A stretch of 64,000 nucleotides of DNA, from the NCBI GenBank assembly GCA_963921795.1, contig OY997661.1, positions 41,735,466-41,799,465 of the forward strand. Direction: 5' to 3'. The notes under the pieces are model-generated. The model was not told the DNA's origin and did not search any database. It saw only the letters and a list, made by a program, of their open reading frames with translations. This DNA comes from Nannobrachium achirus (taxonomy: Eukaryota; Chordata; Actinopteri; Myctophiformes; Myctophidae). Made by a program: the position numbers and the translations under genes. How positions within the stretch are numbered: the stretch's first letter is position 1; the number at the start of each line of letters is the position of its first letter. Shown one piece after another: positions 4,201 through 61,605 of this stretch.

Positions 4201-7200
4201 CCTTCCTAAAAATGTCCCCCAACCCCCCTTGATGCGTATTTGAATATCCGCCATTACTAAATAATGTATTATGCATCATAAATCCTGAAACAAGCATTAT
4301 AATACAAACTGTCATGTCTACACCTATGTTGTGATTTCCAAGGATTGCAATGATATCATGTACCAGCTCAGTGGCCTAGTGGTTTGAGTGTCGGCCCTAA
4401 GACTGGGAGATCCGGGTTCAAACCTGGGTTGTGTCATACCAAAGATTCTAAAAAATGGGACCCAGTGCCTCCCTGCTTGAAACTCAGCATCAAGGGTTGG
4501 ATTGGGAGTAACTCCCTGCGACATACTAGCAAAATGCTTCAAATCCCGCATGCAGCGTCCGATTGCCGTGAAAGGCCCAAGAACACGTGGCACCCTTTTC
4601 ACTTTGGCCTATTATAGTAGGCCAAAAAAAAACCTACCTGACCTGCCGGAGTCCTGTTCGGAAGAACACTGCTTCTAGTTTTTCTTTGATATTCTTCTTT
4701 GCTTTCCCTTGATGCCTTTTTTCTTTCCTGCTTTTTATGCCTTGGCCACTTTATCGCTGCTTGCAGCTATATTTTGATTTATTATAAAGTGCATTTCTTC
4801 TACTTACACTCCACTCTCAGCTTGGCCACGGTCCTGTCGTCTCTGGACTCGCAGGCGTATTCCCCCTGGTCCTCCTTGGTCAGCCGGTGGATGGTCAGAC
4901 TCCGCTCCACGCCGTCGGCGCGGATGGTGAAGCGCCGGCTCGGCGCCACCTCCACGCCGTTCCGCAGCCACTGCACGTCGGCCTTGGGCTTGCCCACCTC
5001 GCAGCGGAGGGTCACCATGCCGTCGGCGTGGGCCGTCGTGTCCTCAAGCGGCTTCACAAACTTGATCCTCATCTCTGCAACGGAAGCGATCGAAGTAGAT
5101 GTAAAAGGTAGGGTAAGTTGATTTCACTTAAGTTTCAGTTTTCATGTGTGTGATGTGTGCGCAATTTGGAATCACACCACAGCTCTAGGCGGAGCCGCTC
5201 ATTTCACCAATGTCGGCAGGCAGGGTTAGGTTTAGGCATAGTTTTACTGAAGTTATGTTTAGATTTAGGCATAGTTTTACTGAGGTTAGGTTTAGGCATA
5301 GTTTTACTGAGCTTGTAGATCGGCTATTTCCGGCAAAGAGCTTTGGTGTAGAGGGGAAAAAGAGCAGACTAAGTACAGAGTGAAAGGTCAAGTTTATTAA
5401 GTACTGACGGTTCAAGTGGTTAAATATCTGCAAACACAAATTGACACGAATCCAAAATACACCGACGACTGCGCTGTCAAACAATGAAACCATATGGAAT
5501 CTATGATAAGGCCGTGGGGGTCCCTGCTTCATCTCTCTCTCAAGGGGTCCCTTGGCCTGAAAACGCTGAAGACCCCCTGTTGTAAACGAGTCTTACCTTT
5601 GACCAACAGGCTGAAGTGGATAGTGTCGGTGTTGACGTCGCAGGTGTACTCTCCGGCGTCGGAGCGTCTCAGCGGCTCGATGGTCAGCGTGCGCGTGTGG
5701 CCCACCATGCTCGTGTGGAAGCGGTCCCCCTCCACCTGGGTCCAGTCTTTGAGCCAGCGCACCATGGCCCAGTCCTTGGACACCAGTCCTGACAAGGTGA
5801 CGCTCTCTGCCTCGTACCCCGTCACCACCACGTCCTCTTGCTTGTTCACGAAGGTGATTGGAGGCTCTTTGACCAATAGGGAAAGAGAGAGTCTAATCAG
5901 CAATAGAGCAGGGTTCCCCAATTCATTTTCCCCAAGGGCTGAATCATGTCTAGGGTACCAAGCCGAGGGCCACAACATTGCAGGGGGCGGCGGCGGCGTT
6001 CCCGCTACTCAATCGACAGTTCGGATATCTTCGTTGTCGGGTGGAAATCTTGTATGTCCAAAACCGTTTGTTTTGCATTTATCATTTTAAAAATTATTTA
6101 AACTAGTGAAAACAGCCGATCTACAAGCACACAACGCCTCGCACCGCGAGGCGTTGTGTGCTTGTAGATCTGCTGTTTTCACTCCTTTTGTGCGAAGGCC
6201 TTGTATGATTTGCGAAAGAACGTACACATTTGGAGATACGAGATTTCCACCCGACAATGACGATATACTAGTGTTGTTGCTGCTCTTATACCACCATTAT
6301 TACTAGGGTTGGTGGGGGCCTGACAGTAGCCCCCCGCGGGCCGCAAATGGCCCGCAGGCTGCCTATTGGGGAACCCTGCAATAGCAGCAGAAGTGGTTTC
6401 CTGGTCCCATTAAAAGAAATCGCCCATTCATTTTCCCCATAGACTTAAACAGAAATATTTATAACAATTATGTTAAGCCTAGAACCAAGCCATCCAGGAT
6501 GGCAGTGAATCATGACCATGAAACCTTTGAACCGATATAAATGTATATTTAATTTTTATATTTAATTATTTGATATACTACATTTAACCCTTTGTTTAGC
6601 GATGTTCAAAATGATACGATACGCTTCACGATACATGGTTAACGATACGATACATGGACGATATTGGTTCATTCATGGCGATACGATTCGATTCAATGAT
6701 TTAAAATCAATAGTAATTATGAAATCTGTGTAAAACGTATAAAAAATCTATTATGGCAGTAAATGCTGTGATTATCTAGCAAATACATGGACATTATATT
6801 TCAACACATATGGACAAAGCCACCAGCCACCTTGACATAAACACAGAGATTACATACGGTACATTTATCAATAGACCAAGAGTAGCTATATGGAATGGAA
6901 AGGTAATTAGACCCCTATTTTTCATTTTCCCTCTTAAAATTGCCAAATACAAGGCACAAATACTTAGTTTCCATACAATCAATTATTTGCATTGCAAAAC
7001 GATTCGATACCGATTACCCCATTTTATTGAGATGACAAAATTATAGTCCTGCATTAAATCAGATTAGATTACTGTTTTGTAAGTAAATGATTCAGGATGG
7101 GCAATAGTTGCAGTATTATTCGATAAGACTTTTAACATTCACACCAGGAACCGTATTTGAATGAAATTTGTAGGGCTGTCACGATTAGGACATTTTACAT

Positions 7201-10200
7201 GACGATTAATTGTCACTCAAATAATTGCGATTAACGATTTCATTGTGTTTCTGTCATTGACAATTACAGTACATTCCTGTTTGGCTTGTAGGCTTTGAAG
7301 TTGTACATGGCAGATATGACACATACAGTAACCTAAATATACAAAGAAATGACTTACATATTTGACAACTTTATACTTGAAAAAGAAACTCGATAGTGGA
7401 AATAGCTGATCTACAAGCTCACGACGCGTTGTGAGCTTGTAGATCTGCTATTTCCACTATTTCAGCAAATGTTTGAAAATATGATAATTTTTCAACATGT
7501 AAACGATCATGACGATTATGACAAAATAATTGCAATTATGTCAAATAACTGCAATTATGTCAAATAATTGCAATTATGTCAAATAATGGCGATTAGACGA
7601 TTATGTAATAATTGTGACAGACCTATAAACTTGTCTTCTCAACCCCAGGCTCAGTACCTTGAATCCTAACGATGATCGTCATCTTGTCGTCCCCCGTGTC
7701 GCACACGTACTTCCCGGAGTCCGAGGACTGGACGTTACAGATCATGATCCTTCTGAGAGTGCCGCGGCTTTCGATGGTGGCGCGATCGTCGCTGGTCAGC
7801 AGCGTGTCGTCGCGGTACCACTGGAGGGGAGCGTTGGCCCGCGAGACCTCGCAGGCCAAGATCAGATCCTCACCAGCCATCATCTCCTGGAATTCGGAGT
7901 CGCCCGAGTTCCCCACGATGGTTACCGGGGGCTCTGGGGGGGTGAGAGGGTTTTTAGGACATGATGCACATTATTTAGCATTATTGTGTCCAATTTAATC
8001 AACACTGATCGATTGTTATTGTCATACACTTTTGTTGGTGCTGTCCTGCTTTAAGACATTATAGTAATAATAATGCAAAATGCATGTATCATATATTTAT
8101 CGACACAGTACAATGTGTTTCAGAACAAGTCTTAAAGGACAACTCCGCCTTTAAGGGATATGGGGGGGGGATTTTATTGTCTAATCAGGCTTTTATGAAC
8201 ACCCTGAACAGTTTTAATTTGCTTGATTCAATATTTAGATATTTAATATAAATGTTACCAGGCTTTTCAGGCCCAGGGCCTCTCCCCACACACGCATTGT
8301 AACTTCAGTTATCGAAAAAACACGGCCTGCTCATGTATTAGGAGGGTAGTATGAGTCACCATAATGGGTGTTTTTAATGAATCTATCATGGTTAAAATGA
8401 AGTTTGAAGTTACAATGGGTGTGTGTGGAGAAAAGCCCATAAGGTGTTTCCCTGTTGAAAGTGGAATATCCCTTTAAATAACCTCTAGGCTCATTTTCCT
8501 ACTTATATTGATCCAAAATTACTGTCCATGGGGTCTATTGGGTAGAAATGCCCCTGTTGTCCAGTTTCCACAGCAGAAACCAGTAGCCCTCATAGCATAG
8601 AGTGGAGCCCATAAGCCTATGGCTTTTACACTATTTGTTGCAGTCGAAAGTGATTTTTTCTTCTCGTCCATGCCTTGGTTGTCCCACACAAGCCACCACA
8701 GTCTCATAAATCATGTTTTGGGGTGAGCATTCGGCACAACAGCCACGTCTTTTCAGGGAACTGGCAAAACACATAACAGCCTAACATCTGTTTAGCAGAG
8801 TGTGGCAGCTTGTGTGGGACAACGATGGCATGGATGCGTGTGTAATGGCAACTACTGTAACAACACATTGAGAAAAGAAAAAACACCAATAGCGTAAAAG
8901 CGATAGGCTTATGGGCTCCAATCTATGCTATGAGAGCTGCTGGGTTCTGCTGGGGAAACAGGACAACAGGGGCATTTCTGCCTAATAGACCCCATGGACA
9001 GTCATTTGGGATCAGTAGGACAATGAACCTAGATGTTATTTAGGGCAGAGTTGTCCTTTAAGTTAGGGGTCTTCAACAGGGTTCCAGGACCCCTAAGGGG
9101 TCCTCAGAGTTACTACAGGGGGTCCTCCAAATCTGTGTATGATAGAAACCTTTTTTTTCCCTCCTTTTTTATATTAACCACTTGAACCCTAGCGTCCATA
9201 TTCGGAGAACTTTAGCCAAAAATAGCAGATCTACAAGCTCACTGCGAGGCGCTGTGAGCTTGTAGATCGGCTATTTTTAGCAAAGAGCTTTGGTGTAGAG
9301 GGGAAAAAGAACAGACTAAGTAAGAGTGAAAGGTCAAGTTTTTTAAGTATTGACGGTTCAAGTGGTCAAATATCTGAAAACACAAATTGACATGATCCAA
9401 AACACACTGATGATCGTGCTGTCAAACGACAAAACTATATGGAATCTATTAACAGGTTGCGGGGGGTCCCTGCTTCATCTCTCTCTCAACTAAGGGGTCC
9501 CTGATTCATCTCTCTCTCAGTCTCAACTAAGGGGTCCTTGGCCTAAAAACGTTGAAGACCCCTGCTTTAAGTCAAAGCATAAGCCACAAGTGATGTAAAA
9601 TCACCACTGGCTGAATGGGTTTACCTTCTACGGTGACATGGAAGATGACGTTATCGTCGCCCACATCCAGCAGGTACTCTCCCGAGTCCCCCAGCTCGGC
9701 GTTGAGGATGATCAGCGAGCGGAAGGCGCCTTCCTCCTCCTCGCAGAACCTCTCGTCGTCCTCGACGCGCTGGCCGTCTTTGAACCACTTGGTGGCGGCG
9801 GCGGTGGCCCTGGACAGCTCACACTCCAGCTCGATGTCGCCAGAGACCAGCACCTTCACGTCTGTCTTCAGCTCTGCCTTCCCCACAATCTTCACCGGTG
9901 GCTCTGATGGATACAGAAGTGGGAAAAATGTCAACTCGTTATATGATAGCCGTAGAATGAAATATTGAATGGATAACTCTCGTGAATTATGTTAAATTTT
10001 AATATCATTAGACCACATTCAATTGAACCACGTTTTTATCATGCTGTGGGCGAAAGAGGCTAGCCTTCTACAAGTGTGTATATACGTGTGTATATATACA
10101 GTATATATATATATATATATATATGTTACAGGATGTTTGAGACGCCAGGACGTTCATTGCAAGAGCGCTTGTTTTGTCGTTCACCACACACCAATCACCA

Positions 10201-13200
10201 CCAGGTGGCGACGAAAGCCATTCAAAAGTGAAGGCGCCGACGTCACTCATTTGCGACTCCATATGCGACTCTATTTACTAGCCTAGCCTAGCCTAGCTTA
10301 GCCATTAGCTCCATCGTAGACAGGGCGTTTATCGTGGGCTTGCCCAGGCCTTACGGCCTGGGCATAAATATAACGATTGCATTCACCACGGCTTCGTAAC
10401 TCGCGCGGCGCTCCGCCGGCCACGCGGCCCTGGCCCGCTCTTCGCGGCCACTCGCGCCTGCGGCGCTCGGGGGCGAAGAGCAGGACCAAGGACCGCTGGC
10501 CTTCGCGCCGCTTGCAGTGTCGCTGTTCCGCCCCGTGCAAGCACGACGAGCGCTCCGCGTCTCGAACGTTCTGTTTCTCTAACAAACCGTGACATATATA
10601 TATATATCCCGATTTAGGGAGTCTTTACTGGTACACTTGAAACACAATTGTATACATAAATATACCAGTAAGACTCTTAAATTGGGAGATAAGTGTCTGT
10701 CAGGTCGCATACACAAACTTTGGAAGGCAATGGTAGCCAATCAGGAGGGAATATGGGAAATGGGACAGATCCATGTTGATGACATGACTGTAGAGATACT
10801 GTGTACCGCTTTGCGTGATTTTAGGGCAAAATCTGTAGGAGCAGTGTCCAAAAATTTGTTTAAAAAAAATCGGCCAGATGGTGGCGCTAGATGGGACAGA
10901 TGCATTTTGATGACAAGACTGTAGAGATACTGTGTACCGGTTTGCGTGATTTACGGGCAAAATCTGTAGGAGCAGTGTCCAAAAATGTGTCTTGCAAGAA
11001 TTGGCCTCATGGTGGCGCTAGAAGAGGGTCATGTGAGAAATGACGGGCGGGGGTTGTGGTTTGGCAGCCAAGGAGTGTGTGTGCAAAGTTTGGCATGGAT
11101 CGGGGCAACGGTGGCGAAGATATGAGTAGGGGAAAAGTGTGACGTGTGACGTACTGTAGTAACTGTCTACGACCTGACGGTCACAACAATATAAGTTGTA
11201 GCCCCACGGGGGGTGGGGCTGCTCCATCTCCCTGTCAGTTTGGGGGTCCCTGGCCTCTGTTTTAACCCATTTAGGCCTAGGATTATTGACTACTTTAACT
11301 ATTGAAAAATAGCAGATATATGCGAGCTTGTAGATCTGCTATTTTTGAAAAAGTCATGAAAATGTGTGCAAATCTTTGAATATATGTATTTTCAAAGCGA
11401 ACGTTTGTAACTCATATTTTGCTTCTGGGTGGTCCCTGGAACTAGATATTTTGAAATGGGGGTCCGTGGCCAAATAAATATCATTTTGGGGGTCCTTCAC
11501 ATGAAAAAGTTTGAGAACCACTGACATAGTAGTCTCTCAAGAACAGACTTACGGAGCTCCAGTTAAGTGAAAAGGACCTTTTCTTTGACGATGTCTGGCC
11601 AGATTGCTGACATAGTTCTTCCAAAAAATCTTAGAAGGATTCAAAAGACACTTATAGAATCGGGTCAAAATTCTAATTTTCAAGATTTTTCAAAAATATC
11701 AGATCTACAAGCTCGCAGCGCAGCACTCGGTGCCACGCTGTGAGCTTGTATATCTGCAGTTTTTTAAATTTATATTTAAAGCATAAAATATTGCGTCATA
11801 ATGTGTTCAGGCCTAAATGGTTTTAAACATTACTAAATCACAAATGTCCTTACCGGAAACGTTGACCTGGAACTCCACCTTATCGTCCACCGCGTCGCAG
11901 GTGTACCTCCCAGAATCCCCGGGTGTAGGAGAGTGGATGGTCAGCCGACGGACGAGGCCGTCCTCCGTCATGGTGACGTTGCCGCCCCACTCCAGCTGTC
12001 TCCCGTCCACCCACCAGGTCACCACGGCGTTGGGCCGGGACACCTCGATCTCCAGCACCATGGGCTCACCGGCCAAGTGCACCATGTCGTCTGACACCGA
12101 TGTGGGGCGGGTAAGCTTCACGGGAACATCTAAAACAGGGAAGGAGATCAAGTGCAGGAATTAATGGTCATGATAAACAAAAGATAGTCATTTTAAAGGA
12201 CATATTTTAGATTGTAATTAGAGAAAAGAAAATATGAGTGTTAGAATGTTTTCATTTACAGCTTTCTATTGTTTTAGAGATTTTAGTAGTTTGATTTCAG
12301 TGGTTGGGGGCATGCGTACAAGTGGCAAAATATGTCATTTTAGACACAATAAGCCAGCAATTTCTTTGTTACTATTTACACCAGCCCCCATAAGTCACAT
12401 CTACCCATGAAAGATTGTGGTGCATCTTGGGAATGGGCTTATTGTGTCTAAAAAGACATATTTGTATGCATTCCCCGAACCTGGTATGCATTCCCCGAAC
12501 CTGGGTGCATGCATGCAAATCAAAATCGTTAAAATCACTCAAACGATAGAAAGAAGTAAATGAAAACATTTTAATACTCATCTTTTCTTTTCTCTAATTC
12601 TCTAAAATATGAAACCTTGTTTCAAAGTTGTCCTTTAAGAGTCACGTGTGCTTCATAAACGAGGTGCCTTCTGTTACAAATATTGCAGAATTATGTTACG
12701 ACCCCCAGTCTAGTCTTTGTCCCCGGGTAGCTCAGTCGGTAGAGCTCTCGCCTTTGTACCGCTAGGTCATGGGTTCGATTCCGGGCACCGCCAACTCCAG
12801 CGTATGAGTAGCACGGCTTAGCAAGTCGTGCGGCAAGTACTGGGAGCTGATGGTAGGTGTGGCGCTCCACCTCAGCAGTCCATCTCCCAGGGGTCTAGCG
12901 CATTGTAACGGGGACAGACTCCCGCGTGTTACCGGCTGATACCGACAATAAGCCACTCCCGACCTACTTGACTTGCCCAGTCTAGGGTTGGGGGAAGTAA
13001 CATAAAATGGAAAACAACAATGGTTTAAAATGGAATATATATTTATTACAAAGAAGGAAAGTAGATTTTTTTTCTGCATGCAATATTGTGAATTATCCAG
13101 CTGCACACACACACACACACACACACAACTAGTACTCTATCAATCAAGCTTTATATACAGTAGCACTTTTTACAGCGTGGCTCTGAAAGAGGCTAGGCAT

Positions 13201-13383: not shown

Positions 13384-16300
13384 AAGAGCCATTTTAGCCA
13401 TCTTGTTATTTAATTGATGATGTCACCAAAAGGCAGTGTTGTAAAAAGTACTCACATTTTATACTTAAGTAAAAGTATCAATACAGCAATATAGAACTAC
13501 TCCGTTACAAGTAAAAGTCCAGAATTCAAAATGTACTTGAGTAAAAGTATGAAAGTATTGGCATCAAAATGTACTTAAAGTGCCAAAAGTAAAAGTACAA
13601 AATGTTTGAAAATAGCAGATCTACAAGCTCACAACGCGTCGCATCGCGACGCGTTGTGAGCTTGTAGATCGGCTATTTTCAAATAGCCAAGGGATAAAAT
13701 AAGGCTAATATATGTTTTTTTTATATTATAATGTATAAATGCAAAGTAACTAGTAGCTAAGGTTTTCAAAAAATGTAGCGAAGTAAAAGTACAATATTTG
13801 GATCCGAGATGTAGTGGAGTAGAAGTGAAAGTATTAGAAATTGGAAATACTCAAGTAAAGTACAGATACCTCAAAATTGTACTTAAGTACAGTACTTAAC
13901 CCTCTAAGGCCCACGGTTGTAATATTACAACGTTTGTATTTTATCCAAAAAAAGGTTTAAATCATTTTATTTTAGCTCCCCCTACCACCTAAACACCACC
14001 ATTGGATTCTATTGTTTAGTATTACAATGCCATTGGCCACAATATTTGCATATAAATACCCCCCACAGGGGCTGACATTCACACCCGCCACACCCGCTGA
14101 AATTCCAGAGTTTTGACGAACAACATCTCACTTTTTCATGGAAGCTATACCTCAAAAAAACATAAGTAAAATGCCTGTACTATTCTTTTTGGTGATCATT
14201 AGAATGTCTAGAACATGTACATATGTTATTATTTTGAAAAATATCCCCCATATGTAAATTAGAGCATGATTTATGATTTTTGATTTATGGCTATAAAATC
14301 TTACAAAAACATTTTTTTGAAAAAAACATTACATTTTCCTCTTAATAGGACTCCTACAACACCATCTGATTTTTTTCAATTTTTTATTTCAAGTATTTCT
14401 TAATGCGGGCCTTAGAGGGTTAAGTAAAAGTACTTAGTTACTTTACACCACTGCCAAAAGGCATGGTCAAGGCCAGGTTGCCTAGGTATTAAACAGGCTC
14501 TCTAATCAGCCTCAGGTGTTGCCAGTGGCAGAGGCATGTTTGACTGCGTTCATGAGCGCTATGTTTGACTGTTCATGAGAGCTGTGGTCTGGTAAGCGTT
14601 TGTGTATATTGTGGGGGGGAGTGGGACTGAGTTACTAGGGCCCAAGGTGGAGGGGCCTGGAATTATTTTATACTTTAGCTATTGAAAACTAGACCAGGTC
14701 ACCTGGTTGTGCCAGACCCGCAATGAAAACTAGTATGGCACTGAACTAACACATGAACACACAGGATTTTACAGTCTCAGCAACAAAGCGTAGTGAGCTT
14801 GTAGATCGGCTGTTTTCACTAGTATGGCACTGAACTAACACATGAACACACAGGAATTTATAGTGTCAGCAGCTCGTCAGCCAACTCAACTCAGCTGGTC
14901 CCGTACAGGTGACAGCACTCAAGGCAATCAGCCGAGCAAGGGAAGGGAGGGGCAGATGAGCAGTCTGAGGAAAAGAGGGACCGACCGACAGACAGACCGA
15001 CCGACCGACAAAGGCTTTTCTAGGCCGACCCCCTGGGTCTGGCAAATAGCAGATATACAAGCTCACAGCGCGGCACCGAGTGCCACACTGCGAGCTTGTA
15101 GATCTATTATATTTGAAAATTCGTGGAAAAATCTTTAAATGTAGGCCTATGTATTTTTTAAGCAAACATTTGTAACTCATATTTTGCTTCTGGGGTGGTC
15201 CCTGGAACTAAATATTTTGAGATGGGGATCCGTGGCCAAATATATATATCATTTTGGGGGTCGTTCACATGAAAATGTTTGAGCACCACTGACATAGGTT
15301 TTTTTTTTTTTAAACCTTCAAAGACTTTCACGATTTCTCAAAAATAGCAGATCTACAGCTGGCAGCGTGGCACTCGGTGCCGCGCTTGTGAGCTTGTATA
15401 TCTGCTATTTTTCAATAGTTAAAACACAAAATAACACAGTGAATCCTTGTACCCAGGGCCCAGAATTTGTTGCGACCATAGACTGTATAAAAGATATGGA
15501 CAATGCGAAGCCATTGGTTTCTATGCAGCGCAAATGACACAATATGGGCGCTTGGCATGGGTGTTGCCATCATAGATTGAAATGCAAACGGGGGAGGCTA
15601 TTGGCTGCCAACGGTCACGTGCAACCGCAGGGATACATGGGAGAATGTGGTCGGAGCCTCCCGAAATGCAGCACACGAAGAAGAACACAGCCGACTGGTA
15701 TCAGTTTAGTTGGTCATGCACCCCGCAACTTTATCATCAATGTTAACATAAATGGGACCTTATTTTCACAAAACGCATATCATCGAGATTGAAAGGCAAT
15801 TTTTAACTAGCGATAGGAACCATAAAGTATTCATGAAAATGTTAATTAAGGTTAGAACACGAAAGGGGAAAATGAATGGGATCCAATGGAGAACAATTCT
15901 TTTTGCAACCGGCCAGGGGGAAAACAGCACAACTAGCGGCCAATCATAGGAAGTTTTAGTTCCGTATTGGGCTCATTTTAAATCGGCGGAACTCTCCCGC
16001 TGGGGTTGCGACACCCCTGGTCCTTACCTGTAATGGTCACGAGGAAGGCCACCGAGTCGTCCTCGGTGTCACACACGTACTCCCCGGTGTCGTCCGTCGT
16101 CGTCATGGGGACGACGAGCCGCCGCACGACACCGTCCGCCTCCAGGATGAGACAGGAGCTCTCCTCCACCTCCAGGCCGTCCTTGTACCAGCGAACCGAG
16201 GCGTCCTCCTGGGAGACCTCGCAGGTGAGCTCCAGCCGCTCGGAAGCCAACTGGGTCAGCTCCACTTCAGACTCTTCGGGTGAGACGATTCGGATCGGAG

Positions 16301-22300: not shown

Positions 22301-24694
22301 GTTGCGTTCGCGTTCAGGAGAGTTTGGACAAGGCAATTCTCTTGAATGGTATGGCATGGAAATGCCCCAGAATTTGCATTTCTTTCACCATAGTAAAAAC
22401 TGCATTCATGGTCTGGAATGGGCACTCTTTTACACACGGATAAAAGGGCAGGGGCTCATCTTCCCTCTCACTCTTGCTGGTACCCTTCTGTCAGATATCC
22501 ATTTTTGAGGTTTTTGATTTTTTTTGGCATAAATCAGGGCTATTGAACACCCTTTACAGCTGAGTGTTGGTTAAAATAATATTGAACCAATGGAAAGTAG
22601 TAAAACGTGCTTGGGACAAAACCTCCTAACTCCACACTTTCTGCCAAACCAGCTAACTCCACCCGAATGGCCCTCTCTTTTCTTCATAAATATGTGCTAT
22701 TGAACACCCTTTACGTCTCTGTGTTGGTTCAAATAATATTGAACCAATGAAAAGTAGTAAAAAGCCCTTTGGTCAAAACCTCCTAACTCCACTTGAGCTC
22801 ATTTTACAGAAAATGAACATTTTGGAGCATATCTCGGCCCGACAGCAGAGATATGCTCCTGACACTTTCCTCCAACCCTGCCTGCATTCTCTTCTTCACC
22901 ACTCTTCCACACCATGGATAGTTACTGCCCAACACCGCAAATTCTTTATTATTATTAACTATGTAGGTTAAATCATTTGTCCATGTGTTGCCAGCTGATC
23001 AGGGACATGCTGGGCCCCTGATTCAGCCCAGGAAAAAGAGTTGTAGAGGCCCTCATTGCGCGCTATACAGAGAGATCTCTCTCTATAGCACTGCTGCTAC
23101 TCAAAGATTTGCCATTTCAGATCATGACAAGTGACAAGCCAGTGGGCCAATTACATGAGTTATATTTCGTCATTGTCGGGTGGAAACCTTGTATGTCCAA
23201 AACCATTTTTAAAATGATTTAAACAGCCGATCTACAAGCACACAACGCCTCGCGGTGCGAGGCGTTGTGTGCTTGTAGATCGGCTGTTTTCACTACTTTT
23301 GTACAACAGCCTTGTATGATGAAGCAGGGCTTTGCTTTGCGAAAAAAATTACACATTTTAAACTTGGAGATACGAGGTTTCTGCCCAACAGTGACGATTT
23401 ACTTTGTTGGCCGCCCCCAGCCCCCAGGATGGAACGAAGGCCGACATTTTTATTTTTTTTCCCCTAATGGCCGGCCTGTACCGGACGTTCGGGAGTTGTC
23501 CCACTTTTCCCAATGGCCAGCACGTCCCTGCTGCTGATATGTTTTAACAGATTACCTCTGACATTGACGGTGAATGCCATGTCGTTGTCGCCAGCCTTGC
23601 AGGTGTAGATGCCAGCATCCGAGGCGTCGGCAGAACGGATGATCAACCTCCTCATGGTGCCCTCTGCCTGCAGGGTGATGTTGTCACTGGGATGGATCTC
23701 ACAGCCGTCCTTATACCTGTGGGTAAGTGAATAGTCCATCAGATCCAGAATTCAAATCCAGAATTGACTTCAAAATCCTCTTAATAACATACAAACCATT
23801 ATGGACTGGCCCCACTGTATATTTCAGAATTGCTACACGCAAAACCTAATGTTAAATCCCTCAGGTTTTCTAACAAATGTCTTCTAGACATCCCTGTATC
23901 CAAACTCAATTAATTGATGTTTTTAAGAACCTGCTGAAAACTCTTTTGTTTTGTATACATTTTATGTTATGAAGGTTTTTTTACCTGTCTCATGGGCCCT
24001 GTTTTATCTTGCTTTAACTGAGGGGGGCGGCCTCTTGGTTAGACCAGGTTAACATTCACCAGGTTAGCATTCACCAGTGTCGGCACTTTAGCTACTTACC
24101 AGGCTAGCATTCACCAGCATTAAGTTTTACTGAGGTTATGGCAGTGACATGTTACCACTTTGAGACTCACTGGTGTAGCAGAGTATTTCCAGCAGGGCCG
24201 CCGATGGGGGGGGGGGGGGGGTCTTTTCCCCCCTCCCGGAGGCATTGAGCTTGTATATCTGCTATTTTTCGATAGCTAAATAGCTATAAAATAATTAAGG
24301 CCCCTCTACCTTGGGCCCTGGTAACTCAGTCCCACTCCCCTTCCCACCCCTTGTGACACCCCTGCGTGTCTATGTTAACTAATGATCATTTGTCATACCA
24401 CACAGCTGGAGCGTCCTCTCGGGAGACCTGACAGTAGAGAACCACGGGGTCCAGCTCCATGGCACTCTTATGCAGGTCCTCTTCAGGAATGGGAGTGAAC
24501 TCCACCACGGGTCCTGGAGGAAAGAAGAGGGCGTGAGGGGACAAATGGTGTTTGTAAGCAACTGGAGGTGAGGACTGACGGGGGAGGGGGGAAACTTTGT
24601 CTCCTGGAAAGTGTTAGAAAACTGTTTGTGTTACATTTCGGGCACGCATGTTGTCGTCTTGACACCTAGAAGTCCCACACACACCACACACGCA

Positions 24695-24781: not shown

Positions 24782-27700
24782 GCACACACACACACACACA
24801 CACACACAGCTTTTGTTGCTAGTGACCATTTGTTAGTAGTTTTTAAATGTCTCCACCACTTGGTACCCTGGATATTCCATTTTAGTTGGTTGAAACCAGT
24901 GGTTCTCAACCTTTTCTGGCCGCGACCCCCAAAATAATCATATTTTAACTGGGGACCCCCAAAATAATCATATTTTAACTGGGGACCCCCCTACCCTGAC
25001 AAGCACTAAGAGTTGAGGCATTAGATTTTGAATAACACGGTTCTATTGTGAAAATACGCCTTGTGCTCACAACATGTAGATCGGCTATTTTCACAATTTC
25101 TGTAATATTTGACAATTCGGCCAAAGTTTAATTTAACATTTTAGAGGTAAGTCCTTAAATCGTCACTTTTAAAATGTGATGATAACCTCTATACACTAGG
25201 GCTGTCTTCGACACAGGATTTATGAAGTCGATTCGAGTCGCGGGGGTTAATCCGACGCGTCGACGAATCGTTTTATAGTCTACTTTGTGTAAAAAAAAAA
25301 AAGAGAAAAAAGTGTTGCTTTAAACCACGTCAACATAATAGAATAATACATTAAGAGATGAATTGAATACACAGTGTTTTCGGTGAGCACAAATGTTATC
25401 TGCATAGCAGTGTACAACCATAGAGTTATAACACACCGTTAAAACAAATAAAACATCTCCGCTGTTTCAACTCTGCCCCGTCTCTCGGCAGCGTGCAGTT
25501 TAGATGAGACATTCGCGAACGATTCCGGTCTCTTGAACGGCTCTTTTAAATGAACGATGGGATCCAGTCCGCAGTCGCGGGACACAGAGCACTGACAGAG
25601 TAATGAGTCAGTGTCGAGAACGGATTCATTTCAGAAAAGGATCATAAAAAGGGGGAGGCACAGCTCCCGTTAGAGCCAGCAGTGTGGACATGTCATGGAC
25701 GCAAACACAGCGAAACACAATCATTCATCATGGATTACAACACTGGAACAATTCAGAAGCACTTTAATTAGAAAATGTAACTTGTAGCCTACACTTGTGT
25801 ATGTTAATTTGACTTTAGAAGATTGTTTACTACTTCGTGGACGCGCGTTTGTGCTGTGGCAGGTTATTTAATATGGGATTTTGACAGCGTGCTTCCTCCT
25901 CTTAACGGAACACTGTCCCGGCTCTGAATGTTTTAACGAAGCGGCGGTCTGAACCGTTCTGGCCGTTCCGTCTCACTTTCAACCCGACGCTGGTGCGAGA
26001 CAATAAATAACTGTTCGCCAATTGCTACTTCTCATTGGAAGTACATGACCACACCAGTCCAGCAGTGCACCGCAGTACTGGCAGTAGTAGGCTAACTGGT
26101 GATATAAAAAAATATATATTTTCGCTTCGACTCAAACAATTGTTGTCGATTCCCGGGGCTTAAAACGACGCGTCGATTCGTCGATTTTTAGAAGACACCC
26201 CTACTATACACTTAAACTTATGTTGGCTTGTTTACCTTGGAGCGAGAAAACAAAGTTTCACATTAAGTTAATCCTCTGGGGACCCCCCCAAAATAATCTG
26301 GGGACCCACCTGGGGGTCCCGACCCACAGGTTGAGAACCACTGGTTTAAACTGGAACTCAACATACAGTTGCAATAAGTTATCAAAATGAGTAGAAACGA
26401 CAAGCCGCAAGACAACGAGGCAATTAGATGGAAAAACGATGTTTAAAAAAAACGACATCGACCCTGATGACAAGCGATTAACCGAAATGTGTTTGTTTAA
26501 AACCAACACGTTCCCTTAGGCTTAGCATCTCACTTCTGCACAACAAAGAACACCAAGTCTTCAGCTTTATCATCACCTTTGACCTCGACCTGAAACGTCG
26601 CGCAATCGTCGGCCGTCACGCACGTGTACGCGCCCGAGTGAGACCAAACGGCCGATTGGATAATCAGCGTCCTCCTGTGGCCTTCCTCGAGCAGCTCCAC
26701 GCCCGGATGGTTGAAGACCTGCTCGCCGTCTTTGTACCAGTACACCTGGCCGCACGGGTCCGTCAGGTAGCACTGGAGAGCTATGGGTTCGCCCTCCTCG
26801 GTGGATTTGGTCCGCTCGCCCTCTGGGATCTCGTAGAACTTGACGGGAGCCGCTATATATGAGCGTTTGGGAGTTGGGTTAGTGTGTGGCAGATGAGACA
26901 TGAGGAGTTTAGAAATGGCATTTTTTCCAATGTATGTCTCATTTTGAAATGGGACTCGAGGTTGAAATGGACTTCTTTTAACCACTTTACCCAGGGGTAC
27001 CTATTTTGGGCAGTCATTGTAGGTGGATATTTGTCATGAATTTTTAAAATAACTAAAAGTATTGTAAACAAAAAAGAAAGAAAACAAGAGGAAAAATTGC
27101 AAAAAAACAGTAAATCTACAAGCTCATAACATGCAACAATGTGAAGCGTTTATTTGTAATGGAAATGGAAAATTATATATAATTATATATGTGGTTAAGC
27201 GATCGTCTAAATATTTGAAGAGTACCTATTGTTTTACTAATTTCATGAAGTCCAAATTAAGTCGACTGTGTATGTGGCATTTTGCAATGATGATTTAGGT
27301 TGATTGTCATTATGGTGGGATGTAGGGTGGTTGTGATGGCATGATATGTGTATAGGAAGGGGGTTATGCATACTGTATACGTGCCAGCTCTTTTAAATTT
27401 AGGCCTAGAATTATTGAATGCTTTAACCAGTGAAAAATAGCAGATATACAAGCTCACAGCGCGGCACCGAGTGCCGCGCTGCGAGCTTGTAGATCTGCTA
27501 TTTTTGAAAAAGTAGTGAAAATGGGTGCAAATCTGTCAATATATGTATTTTCAAAGCGAACGTTTGTAACTAAAATTTTGCTTCTGGGTGGTCCCTGGAA
27601 CTAAATATTTTGAGATGGGGGTCCGTGGCCAAATAAATATAATTTTGGGGGTCCTTCACATAAAAAGGTTTGAGAACCACTGACACAGTAGTCTCTCAAG

Positions 27701-42390: not shown

Positions 42391-42468
42391 ATTGAAAAAT
42401 AGCAGATATACAAGCTCACAGCGCGGCACCGAGTGCCGCGCTGCAAGCTTGTAGATCTGCTATTTTTT
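42391..42468. repeat. palindrome, CGCGGCAC-tip type
   Basis: GATATACAAGCTCACAGCGC left, CTGCAAGCTTGTAGATCTGC right. Confidence 0.8.
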
Positions 42469-42669
42469 GGGAAAACCCGTGAAAATGTGCGTCAGTGGTG
42501 CTCAAACATTTTCATGTGAAGGACCCCGAAGATGATATGTATTTGGCCACGGACCCCCATCTCAAAATATTTAGTTCCAGGGACCCCCCCCAGAAGCAAA
42601 ATTTTAGTTACAAATGTTCACTTAAAAAAATACATATATTCAAAGATTTGCGCACATTTTCACAACTTT

Positions 42670-42745
42670 TCAAAAATAGCAGATCTACAAGCTCGCAGCG
42701 CGGCACTCGGTGCCGCGCTGTGAGCTTGTATATCTGCTATTTTTC
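42670..42745. repeat. palindrome, CGCGGCAC-tip type
   Basis: GATCTACAAGCTCGCAGCGC left, TGTGAGCTTGTATATCTGC right; opposite polarity to 42391. Confidence 0.8.
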
Positions 42746-42829
42746 AATAGATAAAGTTATTAGGGCCCCCTCCACCTTGGGCCCCGGTAACTCAGTCCCA
42801 CTTTCCTACCCCTTGTGACGCCCCTGCTT

Positions 42830-45181: not shown

Positions 45182-45426
45182 CACCTAGCTTCGATGACCA
45201 GTGAGTCCAGATAAAGTTAGGCACTCCATTCACAGACCGTGGCCCTGCTAAAGATAGGAGGAGAGGCACAGCTCTGTCGTGGCTCACCGGGCTTAGCAGA
45301 TATCCTGACATAAACCCCCACAAGAGAAGACCACCCCATCCAGGGGCGTCACAAGGAGGGGGGGAAGTGGGACTGAGTTACTAGGGCCCAAGGTGGAGGG
45401 GCCTTAATTATTTTATACTTTAGCTA

Positions 45427-45506
45427 TTGAAAAATAGCAGGTATTCGAGCTCACAGCGCGGCACCGAGTGCCGCGCTGCGAGCTTGTAGATCTGCTATTT
45501 TTGAAA
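45427..45506. repeat. palindrome, CGCGGCAC-tip type, mutated left arm
   Basis: AGGTATTCGAGCTCACAGCG left, CTGCGAGCTTGTAGATCTGC right. Confidence 0.75.
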
Positions 45507-45600
45507 CGTCGTGAAAATGTGTGCAAAACTTTGAATATATGTATTTTTCAAGTGAAAATAGCAGATCTACATGCTCGCAGCGCTGAGCTGTGAGCTTGTA

Positions 45601-45868
45601 AATGGTGCATTTATATAGCGCTTTTATCCAAGGCGCTTTACATAGATTGTGCATTACATTCACCCATTCACGCACACATTCATACACCGGTGGCGGAGGA
45701 AACCATGCAAGGCACCAACCTGCTCACCGGGAGCAATTAGGGGTTCAGAGTCTTGCTCAAGGACCCTTCGACATTAACTCAGGGGGAGCCCGGATTCGAA
45801 CTGGGAACCCTTCGGGAACCCTTTGTGCTCTAATAACGGTTTCTCTACCCCTGAGCTATGCCGCCCCT
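45601..45868 (-). mobile_element. tRNA-derived SINE inside a palindrome arm
   Basis: Minus-strand head GGCGGCATAGCTCAGGGG, box B-like GTTCGAATCCGGGC, tail ending TATAAATGCACCATT. TTGTA at both edges (45596-45600 and 45869-45873) is the target duplication within the palindrome arm GAGCTTGTATATC. Confidence 0.8.
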
Positions 45869-46401: not shown

Positions 46402-46652
46402 ATATCGTCATTGTCGGGCGAAAACCTTTTATCTCCAAGGTTTCAAATTTGTATGTTTGTATGCTTCATCGTACAAGACCGTCGCACAAAAGTAGTGAAA
46501 ACAGCCGATCTACAAGCACACAACGCCTCGCGGTGCAAGGCGTTGTGTGCTTGTAGATCGGCTGTTTTCACTAGTTTAAATCATTTTTAAAATGAAAAAT
46601 GCAAAACTAACGGTTTTGGACGTACACGGTTTTCACCCGTCAACGACGATAT
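46402..46652. repeat. TCGTCRTTGTCGGG module
   Basis: ATATCGTCATTGTCGGGCG and CACCCGTCAACGACGATATG ends with the palindrome at 46494. Confidence 0.75.
46494..46573. repeat. palindrome, AGTGAAAACAGC-flanked
   Basis: CCGATCTACAAGCACACAAC against its perfect inverse; tip CCTCGCGGTGCAAGG. Confidence 0.85.
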
Positions 46653-47065: not shown

Positions 47066-47480
47066 ACAGGGTTCCCCAATAGGCAGCCCATTTGCGGCCC
47101 GCGGGTGGCTACTGTCTGGCCCCCACCAACCCCAATAATAATGGTGGTATAAGAGCAGCAACAACACTAGTATATCATCGTTGTCTGGTGGAAATCTCGT
47201 ATCTCCAAATGTGTACGTTCTTTCGCAAATCATACAAGGCCGTCGCACAAAAGTAGTGAAAACAGCAGATCTACAAGCACACAACGCCTCGCACTGCTTG
47301 TAGATCGGCTGTTTTCACTAGTTTAAATCATTTTTAAAATGATAAATTCAAAACGAACGGTTTTGGACATACAAGATTTTCACCCGACAACGACGAAAAC
47401 TGTCGCTGGAGTAGTGGGAACGCCACCGTCGCCCCCTGCAATGTTGTGGCCCTCGGCTTGGTACCTAGACATAATTCGTT
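47066..47480. mobile_element. hAT-like element, CAGGGTTCCCCAAT type
   Basis: Inverted partner of 5909-6378: CAGGGTTCCCCAATAGGCAG at the left, GGCCCTCGGCTTGGTACC near the right. Contains module 47171-47397. Confidence 0.7.
47255..47320. repeat. palindrome with one inner arm deleted
   Basis: CAGATCTACAAGCACACAAC left; after GCCTCGCACTGC the right arm resumes at CTTGTAGATCGGC. Confidence 0.8.
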
Positions 47481-49765: not shown

Positions 49766-50177
49766 CATTATTATTGTTTATTTTTATTATTATTATTAAG
49801 GAACTCTAGAAATCTCAGTTGGAACTGTTACCCCAGTGACCCGATGCTGGATAAGCGGTTGAAGATGGATGGATGGATGGATGGATTATTTTAGAGTAAG
49901 CTACTTTATTTACCATTATTGTGTACTCCGCCACATGGGGAGCAATCTTCAATTCAATCTTCAATTCAAAGAAGCTTTATTGGCATGAGAAAACAAACGT
50001 TTACACAGTGGTGGAAAAAGTACCTACATTTTTATAATTAAGTAAAAGTATCAATTCTGCAATGTAGAATCACTCTGTTACAAGTAAAAGTCCAGAATTA
50101 AAAATGTACTTGAGTAAAAGTACAAAAGTATTGGTATCCAAATGTACTTAAAGTACCAAAAGTAAAAGTAAAAAATG

Positions 50178-50255
50178 TTTGAAAATAGCAGATCTACAAG
50201 CTCACAACGCGTCGCACCGCAATGCGTTGTGAGCTTGTAGATCGGCTATTTTCAA
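50178..50255. repeat. palindrome, TTTGAAAATAGC-flanked
   Basis: CAGATCTACAAGCTCACAAC left, TTGTGAGCTTGTAGATCGGC right; tip GTCGCACCGCAAT has one decayed pair. Confidence 0.9.
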
Positions 50256-50300
50256 ATAGCCTTGGTATAACATAGGGCTAAAGTGGTTTATGTATGTTTT

Positions 50301-54262: not shown

Positions 54263-54553
54263 CTCTGATTAACGCCTTGAAAGAAAACAATGAACTCAGC
54301 TAACATGAATGTATTGATGTAATGGTTTATCTGTTGGTGCCGTTTGAAGGTCTCAAGCCACAGTGACCGCGCCACATAAGGTGATCAGTACTTCTGACAG
54401 TCTCATAGCCGTAGAGGGATGACCCTCAGCAGCTGTCAGTAAGCTACAGTATGACAACCGTACTAGGAATCAAAATAATACTGTGTAGAGTGATTGGATT
54501 TCAACAACAGTATGTGCTCTTCACTAATGGAAGGCAGCTATCTGATATTGATA

Positions 54554-54812
54554 ATATCGTCGTTGTCGGGTGGAAACCTTGCATGTCCAAAACCGTTCGT
54601 TTTGTATTCATCATCTATAAAATGTACTAAACTAGTGAAAACAGCAGATCTACAAGCACACAACGTCTCGCATCGCGAGGCGTTGTGTGCTTGTAGATCG
54701 GTTGTTTTCACTAGTTTTGTGAGACGGTCTTGTATGATGAAGCAGGGCTTTACTTTGCCACGTACTCATTTGAAACTTGGAGATACAAGGTTTCTACCCG
54801 ACAGTGACGATA
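54554..54812. repeat. TCGTCGTTGTCGGG module
   Basis: ATATCGTCGTTGTCGGGTGG to CCCGACAGTGACGATAT; palindrome at 54634-54714 (CAGATC / GATCGG, tip TCTCGCATCGCGAGG). Confidence 0.8.
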
Positions 54813-54828
54813 TAAATCTGTATTTATT

Positions 54829-55550: not shown

Positions 55551-56106
55551 CAGGGACGTGCTGGCCATTGGGAAAAGCGGGACAACTCCCGAACGGCCGG
55601 TTCATTCCTGGCCGGTCCAGGCCATTAGGAAAAAATTCAAAATAAAATGTCGGCCTTCGTTCCATTCCAACAAAGTAAATCGTCACTGTCGGGCAGAAAC
55701 CTTGTATCTCCAAGTTTCAAATTTGTAATTTTTTTCGCAAAGCAAAGCCCTGCTTCATCATACAAGGCCGTTGCACAAAAGTAGTGAAAACAGCAGATCT
55801 ACAAGCACACAACGCCTCGCGGTGCAAGGCGTTGTGTGCTTGTAGATCGGCTGTTTTCACTAGTTTAAATCATTTTTAAAATGATAAATACAAAACAAAC
55901 GGTTTTGGACATACAAGGTTTCCACCCGACAACGACGAAATATAACTCATGTAATTGGCCCACTGGCTTGTCACTTTTCATGATCCGAAATGGCAAATCT
56001 TTGAGTAGCAGCAGCGCTATAGAGAGAGATCTCTCTCTATAGCGCGCAATGAGGGCCTCTACAACTCTTTTTTCCCGGGCTGAATCAGGGGCCCAGCACG
56101 TCCCTG
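55551..56106. mobile_element. hAT-like element, CAGGGACRTGCTGG type, perfect duplication
   Basis: ATTGAACT at 55543-55550 and 56107-56114. Inverted relative to 23000-23530. Contains GAGAGATCTCTCTCTATAGC, and the module 55677-55940 with palindrome 55782-55862. Confidence 0.88.
55782..55862. repeat. palindrome, AGTGAAAACAGC-flanked
   Basis: CAGATCTACAAGCACACAAC left, GTGTGCTTGTAGATCGGC right, tip CTCGCGGTGCAAG. Confidence 0.88.
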
Positions 56107-58055: not shown

Positions 58056-58188
58056 TTAAAGGGCAAGTTCACCTCTGGGACAACCTGATCTTATTTTATT
58101 GTTGTTTGGGACTCAGGACTGTGTTGATCTAGTCCCAAACAACAATAAAATAAGACCAGGTTGTCCCAGAGGTGAACTTGCCCTTTAA
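58056..58188. mobile_element. TTAA-flanked hairpin MITE, 133 bp
   Basis: AAAGGGCAAGTTCACCTCTG and its inverse; arms of about 57 bp are almost perfect around GGACTGTGTTGATC. Same family as 710-911. Confidence 0.9.
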
Positions 58189-58554
58189 ATACATTCTTGT
58201 CAACTGAAATGCAGTGTTGATACATAACGTTCAAAATGTAACAGATTACCTAATTAACACCATGTACTGAAATTGTAATTGGCAACTAATGTCACTAATT
58301 TAATTACTTTTAGGCTACTTTGGAGTACTCCTTTATCAACAGAACATAGGCTACTGTTAAATGAAATAATCCACAGGTTACTGAAAGAAATCACTTATGC
58401 AGGTAATTAGTAATCTGTCCGAATTTGCGATGCAATGTTCTCAACCTCGGTGGTACATTATACAGCATTTGTTCAAATTTCTGTGTCTTTGTGTGAACCT
58501 TGATACTTCCCCTCTTTTTCTTGTCAATCAAATGTTCTCCACTTACGCCAGGTT

Positions 58555-59843: not shown

Positions 59844-59846
<3 letters not shown>

Positions 59847-59885
<39 letters not shown>

Positions 59886-59957: not shown

Positions 59958-59958
59958 T

Positions 59959-60528
<570 letters not shown>

Positions 60529-61335: not shown

Positions 61336-61551
61336 GTACTGTACTTAAGAACAATTTTGAGGTGTTTGTACTTGATTATTTCCAGTTTTAACTACAGTAC
61401 TTTTACTTCTACTCCGCTACATCTCGGATCCAAATATTGTACTTTTTCTCCACTACAATTATTTGAAAACTTTAGTTACTTTGCAGTTATAAATTATTAT
61501 ATTAAACATACATTAACCACTTTAGCCCTATTATATACTATACCTAGGCCA

Positions 61552-61605
61552 TTTGAAAATAGCCGATCTACAAGCTTGTGAGCTTGTAGATCAGCTATTT
61601 TCAAA
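61552..61605. repeat. palindrome without tip
   Basis: AATAGCCGATCTACAAGCTT runs into GTGAGCTTGTAGATCAGC; about 25 central bases are missing. Confidence 0.85.

Follow-up and report, generated by a model that had tools for sequence, protein, structure and literature searches.

How could one and the same hairpin come to lie inside DNA transposons with unlike ends and different target signatures? The question is raised by a stretch of 64,000 nucleotides of the Nannobrachium achirus genome (the window, in which all positions below are counted), where an earlier note had described about forty complete or broken copies of a palindromic cassette.

Copy number and anatomy of the hairpin

The unit reads GC[A/C]GATC...GATC[G/T]GC over about 57 bp, with the edges TA-GC...GC-TA. 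It is short and non-coding and, like MITEs, has terminal inverted repeats; here the inverted repeat takes in the whole unit, with a stem of 25 + 1 + up to ~12 bp and a loop usually of 3 bases. The arm GATCTACAAGCTCACAACG has 55 matches in the window at ≤3 mismatches, against a shuffle mean of 0.01; at ≤4 mismatches, 58 arms resolve into 22 two-armed copies and 14 single arms. A covariance model trained on 20 two-armed window copies, which match it by construction, gave 62 matches over both strands, corresponding to 31 hairpin places. With seven outlying single arms and one broken copy near 25046, "about forty" is a fair count, and each of the 19 coordinates given by the earlier note lies within 6 bases of the start of a covariance-model place. 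The boundary it proposed, AAAAYAGC/GCTRTTTT, is essentially right, being the outermost stretch common to nearly all families. Single arms at 539 and 5303 exceed the range that it had given (6105..61605), and the single arm at 27113, one of the seven outside the model places, is doubtful.

Copies of the arm were also counted over the whole genome (1.66 Gb). The whole count is 267,874 + 266,603 = 534,477 arms at ≤2 mismatches, about one per 3 kb, as against 2 + 2 = 4 matches for the arm read backwards. A sample of 20 stretches of 10 kb (200,000 letters, 8,880 of them N) gave, with up to four mismatches allowed, 37 two-armed copies and 44 single arms, as against 1 in the control; at ≤2 mismatches, its 70 arms in 191,120 read bases extrapolate to ~607,000, in agreement with the whole count.

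The hairpins and host elements read in the window are the following.

6026..6267 (+): TA-flanked MITE with ends TCKTCGTTGTCGGGTGGAAA (host A), lying inside the CAGGGTTCCCC element 5909-6378
6104..6184 (-): hairpin, family A
23215..23295 (-): family A hairpin with healed mispair, within CAGGGACRTGCTGG element 23000-23530
28578..28658 (-): hairpin, family A, no recognised outer host
46493..46573 (+): family A hairpin with healed mispair, both arms having C
47254..47320 (+): broken hairpin, family A, inside CAGGGTTCCCC element
54633..54713 (+): hairpin, family A, no recognised outer host; mispair polarity opposite to other class A copies
55782..55862 (+): hairpin, family A, within CAGGGACGTGCTGG hAT 55551-56106, duplication ATTGAACT
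11301..11350 (+): shortened first hairpin of TTAA element ~11262-11825
11688..11768 (-): hairpin, family B, same TTAA element
15038..15118 (+): hairpin, family B
15336..15416 (-): hairpin, family B
27429..27509 (+): first hairpin of TTAA element ~27393-27993, family B
27857..27937 (-): second, inverted hairpin of the same element, family B
37533..37638 (+): first hairpin, family B, with local duplication
37914..37994 (-): second hairpin, family B
38121..38178 (+): shortened hairpin, family B
42391..42471 (+): first hairpin, family B, nested in CAGGGGCGTCAC hAT ~42320-42830
42668..42748 (-): second hairpin of the family B element in that hAT
45426..45506 (+): hairpin, family B, in CAGGGGCGTCAC hAT ~45341-46032; TTAA joint kept at 45942-45945
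45550..45618 (+): decayed hairpin, interior of the element at ~45341-46032
60031..60111 (+): hairpin, family B
13434..14453: host C, with ends CAGTGNTGTAAA.. and flanked on either side by the 8-bp duplication CCAAAAGG; contains the hairpin and, elsewhere, a nested TTAACCCTCTAAGGCC element
13604..13684 (+): complete hairpin, family C (host presumably Tol2-like, judged by its ends), near-ancestral form, A opposite G at the AGC_ position
31265..31340 (-): hairpin, family C variant
50177..50257 (+): hairpin, family C
61551..61606 (-): shortened hairpin, family C
539..557 (-): single arm, family D
7394..7459 (-): family D hairpin that has lost its loop, TAGGGCTGTCACG host
9064..9564: host E, ends YAGGGGTCTTCAAC, 8-bp duplication CTTTAAGT on both sides
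9214..9282 (+): hairpin, family E
30849..30896 (+): shortened hairpin, family E, host 30612-30942
29683..29760 (+): hairpin, CATG subtype, family F
34005..34086 (-): decayed copy of the CATG subtype in host H, whose CAGTGGTTCTCAACC end lies at 33902
25046..25097 (-): broken hairpin recognised by reading, within a second host H copy (24897-)
28101..28158 (-): half-deleted hairpin, host J

Host families, nesting and flanks

The hairpin sits in eight accepted host families, one of them known from remnants. Their target signatures are of three kinds: TA in family A and TTAA in family B, as judged by eye, and 8 bp in C and E, with the duplications listed above. The earlier note had listed a series of hosts with unrelated ends. 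Several families with unlike ends stood, but by our reading of the nesting two entries were misassigned, CAGGGTTCCCC wholly and CAGTGGTTCTCAACC in part. The CAGGGTTCCCC hAT (5909-6378; 47067-) is not a direct host, as it only carries a TA-flanked MITE, with ends TCGTCGTTGTCGGGTG, that bears the hairpin in its middle. This family A MITE also lies within the CAGGGACGTGCTGG hAT, and at 28494-29068 and 54550-54816 it has no recognised outer host. Of the CAGTGGTTCTCAACC-type ends, some are interior sequence of the TTAA element and others (33902, 24897) are those of a separate host. The TTAA element of family B carries two hairpins and is itself nested in the CAGGGGCGTCAC hAT at ~42320-42830, 45341-46032 and 59958-60390, so that A is found in two hAT types and B in a third. 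As to relatives of host J, a stretch near 54163 keeps a remnant, and 22192-22258 is matched by the hairpin model.

Could the hosts simply descend from one ancestral element? The note had held that common descent does not explain the hairpin, and the flanks bear this out: in the window and the sample, comparison of locus flanks gave no sign of such descent, and homology reaching well beyond the palindrome was looked for and not found. Among the 120-bp flanks of 38 window loci (blastn, E ≤ 0.05), no cross-family homology was detected except for overlap or nesting, one hAT end shared by the B interior and H (44 bp, E 2e-4) and weak matches of 13-23 bp (E 0.003-0.031). For 74 labelled loci of window and sample at E ≤ 1e-4, the single cross-label link joins E and the 57991 copy over 58 bp. 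Single-linkage clustering of the flanks gave 29 clusters, including 21 singletons, and the two-armed singletons that were read look partly like variants of known hosts; no copy could be placed with certainty in unique DNA outside a transposon. It also produced a cluster of 80 that unites B, C, H, K and the 56600 copy, joined there solely via unlabelled arms and arrays.

The hairpins themselves are sorted by host. In a tree of 47 hairpin cores, A forms one clade (94/92) and B one clade (97/99), the two best-sampled families have one hairpin lineage each, and the family label changes 11 times as compared with 25.4 in shuffles (none of 200 as low). F and H are sister hairpins (98/93) although their flanks are unlike. 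Since hairpin sequence clusters by host, most copies seem to go back to about one capture for each family, and not to continuous hopping.

Edges, mispair and cassette-free copies

In the consensus sequences of B, C, E, F, H and I, a TA directly adjoins GC...GC at either edge; D has it on the left in its consensus and on both sides in the 7408 copy, and the edges of family A read CA...TG instead. The site around the unit is A/T-rich (AAA-TA...TA-TTT) and palindromic in about half of the families. Within these edges the core is near-identical across hosts: the C copy at 13618 and the D copy at L022:6841 agree at 52 of 53 bases, and the six bases beyond AAATAGC agree at only 2 of 6 on each side. 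Within one copy, by contrast, these outer six bases can mirror each other, as seen for C (5/6), two copies of D, one A copy and H (6/6 each), making up four of the eight families. Symmetry is poor (0-4 of 6) in E, F, B, I and one A copy, which counts against a palindromic target in every family.

A mispair of A opposite G is kept in seven of the eight family consensuses, with one or two copies behind each of those for C, D, F, H and I and a plurality behind that for E. Family B has lost it, and 15 of its 19 copies show a further A-opposite-G placed four bases inward; in family A the mispair is healed in individual copies, three of nine. Its polarity relative to the host is mostly constant: A left and C right in three of the four listed two-armed copies of C (the fourth being A/A), A left in 6/7 of those of E, and C left and A right in five of the eight judgeable copies of A, with two healed and one reversed. 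The mispair gives polarity to an otherwise symmetric hairpin, and it may, as a guess, have been selected in propagating copies.

Of all stem cells, 90.9% are paired, compared with 31-46% when the arms are slid. Two-sided changes, which occur on both sides of the mispair, number 69 cells against 28.4 in shuffles (0/500), with no excess of further pair types (26 versus 26.4); between family consensuses, one-arm differences in the inner stem (71) exceed symmetric two-arm ones (51). When eight copies were folded as RNA, as had been suggested, six gave -51.2 to -68.9 kcal/mol and two gave -43.5 and -33.0, with z from -7.7 to -16.6. Rfam, including its microRNA precursor families, had no match in the window at gathering score; sub-threshold matches are mostly to miRNA models, the best for one copy reaching 50.7 bits as against 98.

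Local scars resembling template switching are also seen: inverted loops, arms repeated in tandem, deletions and a flank that is mirrored. At L009:1501 the same flank stands mirrored on both sides (35/40 positions), and among nine listed two-armed class A copies with host orientation the loop is ACC in four and GGT in three.

Host copies with an empty site were looked for, as also proposed earlier: of 18 cassette-free joints read, two are exact single-TA joints and nine keep clear pieces of the hairpin (I, 3/3; E, 5/7; D, 1/8), the others being mostly ragged. The two exact joints belong to fetched D copies (L048 and L050, of eight) and read GTGGAAA-TA-TTTCCAC, which is precisely the predicted empty site; deletion or slippage between the flanking TA pair could also have produced them. 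This form is absent from the readable joints of E (7) and I (3), and the hairpin-free D copies make no lineage of their own, with identities of 0.84-0.92 throughout.

Possible origin and spread of the palindrome

Of the three explanations put forward in the earlier note, an independently mobile palindrome gives the best fit, whereas a preferred landing site of the hosts does not suit, because the hairpin is internal to them; the remaining one, help in transposition or escape from silencing, may hold. We tentatively favour a tiny mobile palindrome with its own edges, inserted about once per family and then multiplied by its hosts. The palindrome, with the edges TA-GC...GC-TA, would have spread alone into several unrelated non-autonomous DNA transposons, originally by insertion at TA in an A/T-rich site with duplication of the TA, leaving about one lasting capture per host family. 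The most ordinary candidate for the inserting enzyme would be a Tc1/mariner-type transposase. The hosts' own transposases would then have raised the hairpin to about half a million arms, sometimes nested two deep, and template switching in replication probably keeps the arms matched after capture and deletes the hairpin in many copies. Symmetric outer flanks are expected from insertion into a palindromic site; target motifs of Drosophila TIR and LTR elements are palindromes that reach past the duplication (PMC3276498, accessible portion).

Is a transposase required at all? In replication or gap repair, a hairpin strand or a polymerase stalled on it might have switched template via the common AAAA...TTTT to other A/T palindromes and so copied the hairpin into new transposons. 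The switching-like scars (the mirrored flank, ACC/GGT loops and arm arrays) and the arms changing together suit such a course, for which the Angel model, with a released stem-loop joining a new place through local homology, offers a precedent (PMC12628747, in the part available). We nevertheless regard it as rather unlikely, since insertion accounts somewhat better for the common edge, the TA at either side and the exact TA joints of two of eight D copies, and template switching, while accounting for change after capture, is unneeded for capture. Ordinary inheritance with exchange, whereby the hairpin was born in one or two transposons and moved by recombination of nested or co-resident elements without ever being mobile, would agree with the common nesting, the related hAT end of B and H and the clustering of hairpins by family, and all the fetched cassette-free copies could be hairpin losses. 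In that case the flanks should have travelled too, yet A, C, D, E and H have no flank homology beyond weak hits and overlap, and C and D diverge right past AAATAGC, which makes this course quite improbable.

A functional RNA hairpin, either a small-RNA source or a silencing decoy kept because it is useful to its carriers, would fit the strong RNA folds, the two-sided changes and the mispair kept in most families. It seems very improbable, given the lack of an Rfam family at gathering score, a loop of mostly 3 bases and the fact that template switching alone can match arms (PMC8794818, accessible portion). Another conceivable but distinctly unlikely reading makes the palindrome a parasite of transposons, whose folded strand with its mispair polarity would be recognised by some enzyme and which would have spread across unrelated DNA transposons under selection on the fold, until few repeats of the genome were commoner; the two-sided changes around the kept mispair, and the inward A-opposite-G of family B, speak for the fold.

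About half a million arms from one hairpin that belongs to no single transposon would amount to second-order parasitism. We know of no description of it at such a scale, and an open-access literature search found nothing similar, which is not proof of its being unpublished. The case bears on how MITEs and palindromes like Angel originate and amplify, and the copies form a large natural record of palindrome correction, inversion, arraying and deletion across several independent backgrounds.

MITEs of the Tc1/mariner type have TA at both edges and inverted repeats and lack coding sequence. The hairpin shares these features and differs in that the whole unit is one ~57-bp hairpin, whose TA duplication and autonomous partner are putative. 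Bacterial REP sequences are likewise high-copy short palindromes, hypothesised to be moved by RAYT tyrosine transposases; they are prokaryotic, and one of their ends bears an unpaired tag, GTAG or CGTC (PMC3733652, accessible portion), a tag absent here, where the hairpin ends read TA-GC...GC-TA. The GC clusters of yeast mitochondria (GC42) are tiny dispersed palindromes too, with a stem more conserved than the loop, a putative AG target duplication and, as here, an unsettled mechanism; unlike this hairpin they are mitochondrial and, in the available part of PMC4478555, not described within nuclear transposons. A precedent in arrangement is Angel, a palindromic MITE of teleosts that is also found inside the fish hAT Tol2 and for which hairpin-based amplification was proposed (PMC8151067, PMC12628747, as far as accessible), since in family C (13434-14453, duplication CCAAAAGG) a palindrome also lies inside a presumably Tol2-like hAT. 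Different from Angel, the present hairpin occurs in some eight families that have three kinds of target signature, is short (~57-80 bp), mostly keeps its mispair and has an arm in about half a million copies.

The hairpin in the window and in the genome

The arm of the hairpin, GATCTACAAGCTCACAACG, has 55 matches in the window at ≤3 mismatches versus 0.01 expected, and at ≤4 mismatches the arms pair into 22 two-armed copies and leave 14 single arms. A covariance model returned 62 matches on two strands, which correspond to 31 hairpin places, and all 19 positions at which the earlier note had located a hairpin are correct. When eight copies were folded as RNA, the inner stem reached at most 25 bp, the loop comprised 3 to 6 bases and the length of the outer stem varied, with energies of -33.0 to -68.9 kcal/mol (z -7.7 to -16.6). 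Folding as DNA, which had been suggested as well, gave the same structure for the three copies used. One position is unpaired at a constant place in 7 of the 8 RNA folds; the exception is a family B copy, with its mispairs elsewhere. No Rfam family reached the gathering score in the window, and a tRNA origin was dropped, as 0 tRNAs were detected there. At 14729-14871 a direct repeat of ~54 bases flanks half a hairpin, each copy starting at the ACTAG end of the hairpin.

Throughout the genome, which comprises 564 contigs and 1,658,514,493 bases, the arm gave 267,874 + 266,603 matches at ≤2 mismatches, and the same pattern read backwards, as a control, 2 + 2. Twenty sampled 10-kb stretches together contain 37 two-armed copies and, besides these, 44 single arms at ≤4 mismatches, where the control has 1; at ≤2 mismatches, 70 arms were counted in the 191,120 bases read, or ~607,000 when scaled to the whole genome. 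The window is somewhat denser: its 64 kb contain 45 arms at that threshold. Neither the exact nor a lightly degenerate arm matched any of the viral contigs searched (0 and 0). The 4 matches in prokaryote genomes (257 billion bases) are about the chance level, since by rough arithmetic ~7 are expected for the pattern used, 19 bases with two two-letter positions. Six 16-letter pieces of the arm were searched in published text and not found there.

Host transposons and their flanks

The earlier note had named a series of unrelated transposons as hosts. Reading the surroundings bore out several unlike hosts, but some of those named proved to be only outer carriers. We accept eight families: A, B, C, D, E, H, I and J.

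Host families around the hairpin (superfamily names are presumed from end motifs and duplication length; L numbers denote fetched genome loci outside the window, as locus:position)
Family A: TA-flanked MITE with ends TCGTCGTTGTCGGGTGGAAA; the immediate carrier of the hairpin inside both the CAGGGTTCCCC and the CAGGGACGTGCTGG hATs
Family B: TTAA element that carries a pair of inverted hairpins and lies inside a CAGGGGCGTCAC hAT, where a TTAA joint is still present at 45942-45945
Family C: Tol2-like, duplication CCAAAAGG
Family D: host TAGGGCTGTCACG
Family E: ends CAGGGGTCTTCAAC, duplication CTTTAAGT
Family F: subtype with no host ends delimited
Family H: host CAGTGGTTCTCAACC..GGCCGCGACCCCC
Family I: L019:6185 and L011:1501, further repeat
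Family J: window 28101, further repeat, remnants only

The idea that hosts landed on the hairpin as a preferred site was dropped, as the hairpin is internal to them. A Helitron-like insertion was dropped as well, because the ends do not fit CTRR, the Helitron end signature.

Among the 120-bp flanks of 38 window loci, compared at E ≤ 0.05, no homology across families was found apart from cases of nesting or overlap, a hAT end that the interior of B shares with H, and hits of 13-23 bp (E 0.003-0.031). Clustering by flank, as the earlier note had proposed, divided 147 window and sample loci into 29 clusters, but one of these is mixed: under single linkage, B, C, H, K and the 56600 copy fall in a cluster of 80, whose connecting links run through 39 loci that bear no label, most of them single arms and arrays. 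For 74 loci the label was assigned by hand from the flanks, as also in the consensuses and the tree, and the sole link across labels is a 58-bp match between E and the 57991 copy; this copy bore label I in the 38-locus comparison, and elsewhere I denotes L019:6185 and L011:1501.

Several elements near the hairpins were also noted. A separate TTAA element with TTAACCCTCTAAGGCC ends and no hairpin lies inside the Tol2-like host at 13894-14423, and a diverged Tol2-like element at 34160-34480 has no hairpin at the corresponding place. Inverted-repeat elements of the TTAAAGGGCAAGTTCACCTCTGGGACAACC type at 700-910 and 58040-58190 lie near the hairpins at 539 and 57991, and no hairpin match was found inside them. 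A family A element at 1380-1480, within another element, is truncated just inside the left hairpin arm.

Edges and arms of the hairpin unit

The hairpin cores of a family C copy (13618) and a family D copy (L022:6841) are identical at 52 of 53 bases. In AAATAGC the two agree at 7/7 positions on the left and 5/7 on the right, and in the six bases beyond it at 2/6 on each side. Because the cores agree while the next bases differ, the mobile unit, with end sequence GCMGATCTACAAGC, appears to extend no farther than AAATAGC. The six outer bases are mirror-symmetric within a copy in C (5/6), in two copies of D, in one of A and in H (6/6 each), and poorly mirrored in E (3 and 0), F (1), I (2), B (4) and another A copy (4). 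In 4 of the 8 families compared, the hairpin is centred in a palindrome peculiar to the host. In the consensuses of B, C, E, F, H and I, GC...GC is immediately flanked by TA on either side; in that of D a TA adjoins it on the left, and the A consensus reads CA...TG. Such a pattern is what an insertion into a palindromic TA target would produce.

Within 20 window copies (19 distinct), 90.9% of the cells pair, versus 31-46% in slid controls. Pairs altered on both sides number 14 versus 10.4 in shuffles (4/500 as high), and two-sided cells 69 versus 28.4 (0/500); further pair types were not above the shuffles in these copies. Over the inner 25 positions of eight family consensuses there are 51 symmetric two-arm, 5 other two-arm and 71 one-arm differences, counted across 28 family pairs that are not independent. 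Taken together, the pairing, shuffle and consensus counts indicate that the arms co-change above chance, though not always.

Such two-sided changes are in themselves no proof of selection, since template switching can create and maintain matched stems, as PMC8794818 reports. In the host E copy at L009:1470-1580 the flanks are mirrored (35/40 positions), as if copied across through the hairpin. The loop of nine listed class A copies in host orientation, a list leaving out L005, L015, L016:7066 and W:37928 (W, window) as belonging elsewhere, reads ACC in 4 and GGT in 3. Orientations tabulated for family D were set aside, the motif used for them being too loose. At L008:1-640 a tandem array joins one arm to a CAGGGGCGTCAC host piece, with spacings mostly of 52 and 31 bases, and at L010:1458-1640 four units of the arm stand in an in-register tandem array. 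The mirrored flank, the loop inversion and the arrays look like traces of template switching.

The strongest hint of selection on the fold may be a preserved mispair, A opposite G in the stem at the position after AGC. Here the arms differ, with A in one and C in the other, in 6/9 copies of A, 3/4 of C, 1/2 of D, 4/9 of E and 4/4 of F, H and I together; for C, D, F, H and I the consensus is built on one or two copies each, and support for the mispair is thin there. In family B this split is found in 0/19 copies, and an A/C split four bases inward in 15/19.

Descent, cassette-free copies and manner of spread

A tree built from 47 two-armed cores over 55 columns resolves few forks. In it, A forms one clade (94/92) and B another (97/99); C, D and I are not told apart, and E is loose, with 5 changes versus 8.3 shuffled (2/500 as low). 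F and H come out as sisters (98/93) with no flank link between them. All labels together need 11 changes versus 25.4 in shuffles (0/200 as low). This is consistent with a small pool of almost identical hairpins, from which each family durably captured about one.

When host sequences minus the hairpin served as genome queries, cassette-free host copies ranked first, so that proportions are not inferable from the following numbers. For host I, 8 of 42 listed rows span the joint, and the three spanning copies fetched all retain hairpin pieces. For host E, 40 of 4,879 candidates were scored and all 40 listed rows span the joint; eight copies were fetched and seven were readable (L042 was left out, its alignment being disturbed by several matches), with clear remnants in five and no clear ones in L040 and L043. 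For host D, 32 of 47 listed rows span the joint; among eight fetched copies, L048 and L050 read GTGGAAATATTTCCAC, with exactly one TA, which is the predicted empty form, L052 has a clear remnant, L047 perhaps one, and the remaining four have other joints. Clear remnants are thus present in 9 of the 18 joints read and the predicted empty form in 2, and no separate hairpin-free lineage was found among the D copies. Based on these joints, loss of the hairpin by deletion is frequent, the hairpin is probably older than the amplification of these host families, and a genuine empty site may exist among them. The search for empty sites that the earlier note had proposed, using the joined flanks of two-armed copies against the window and fetched loci, gave 14 rows; the matches followed were hairpin-less family B copies, two of them simple losses and L028:870 with unlike sequence instead, and other rows include copies aligned to themselves. 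Predicted hairpin-free palindromes gave nothing clean in 297,581 bases.

The most economical reading, to which we give slightly short of an even chance, is a minute palindromic element inserted at TA and then taken up and multiplied by its hosts. The tiny palindrome would have inserted at TA in A/T-rich, often palindromic sites, would have been acquired about once per host family, and would then have been multiplied by the hosts. Its weight is lowered by the remnants in 9 of 18 joints, by the single-TA joint, seen in D only among D, E and I, and by the thin support for the mispair. The nearest rival is the Angel model, set out in PMC12628747, in which a hairpin spreads by local homology; Angel in Tol2, mentioned in PMC8151067, is the nearest precedent, and GC42 of yeast mitochondria (PMC4478555) is a further analogue. 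We consider it unlikely, also in view of the three points that lower the weight of the main reading, that the hairpin is a transposon parasite, polarised by its mispair, recognised as a folded strand and spread among hosts with its fold under selection.

As for the surroundings, the repeat motifs and translations suggest animal genomic DNA, probably that of a teleost. A series of immunoglobulin-domain exons, read from their translations, lies on the minus strand at 820-41718, and we presume them to belong to obscurin or a relative. The introns in the window are rich in short DNA transposons.
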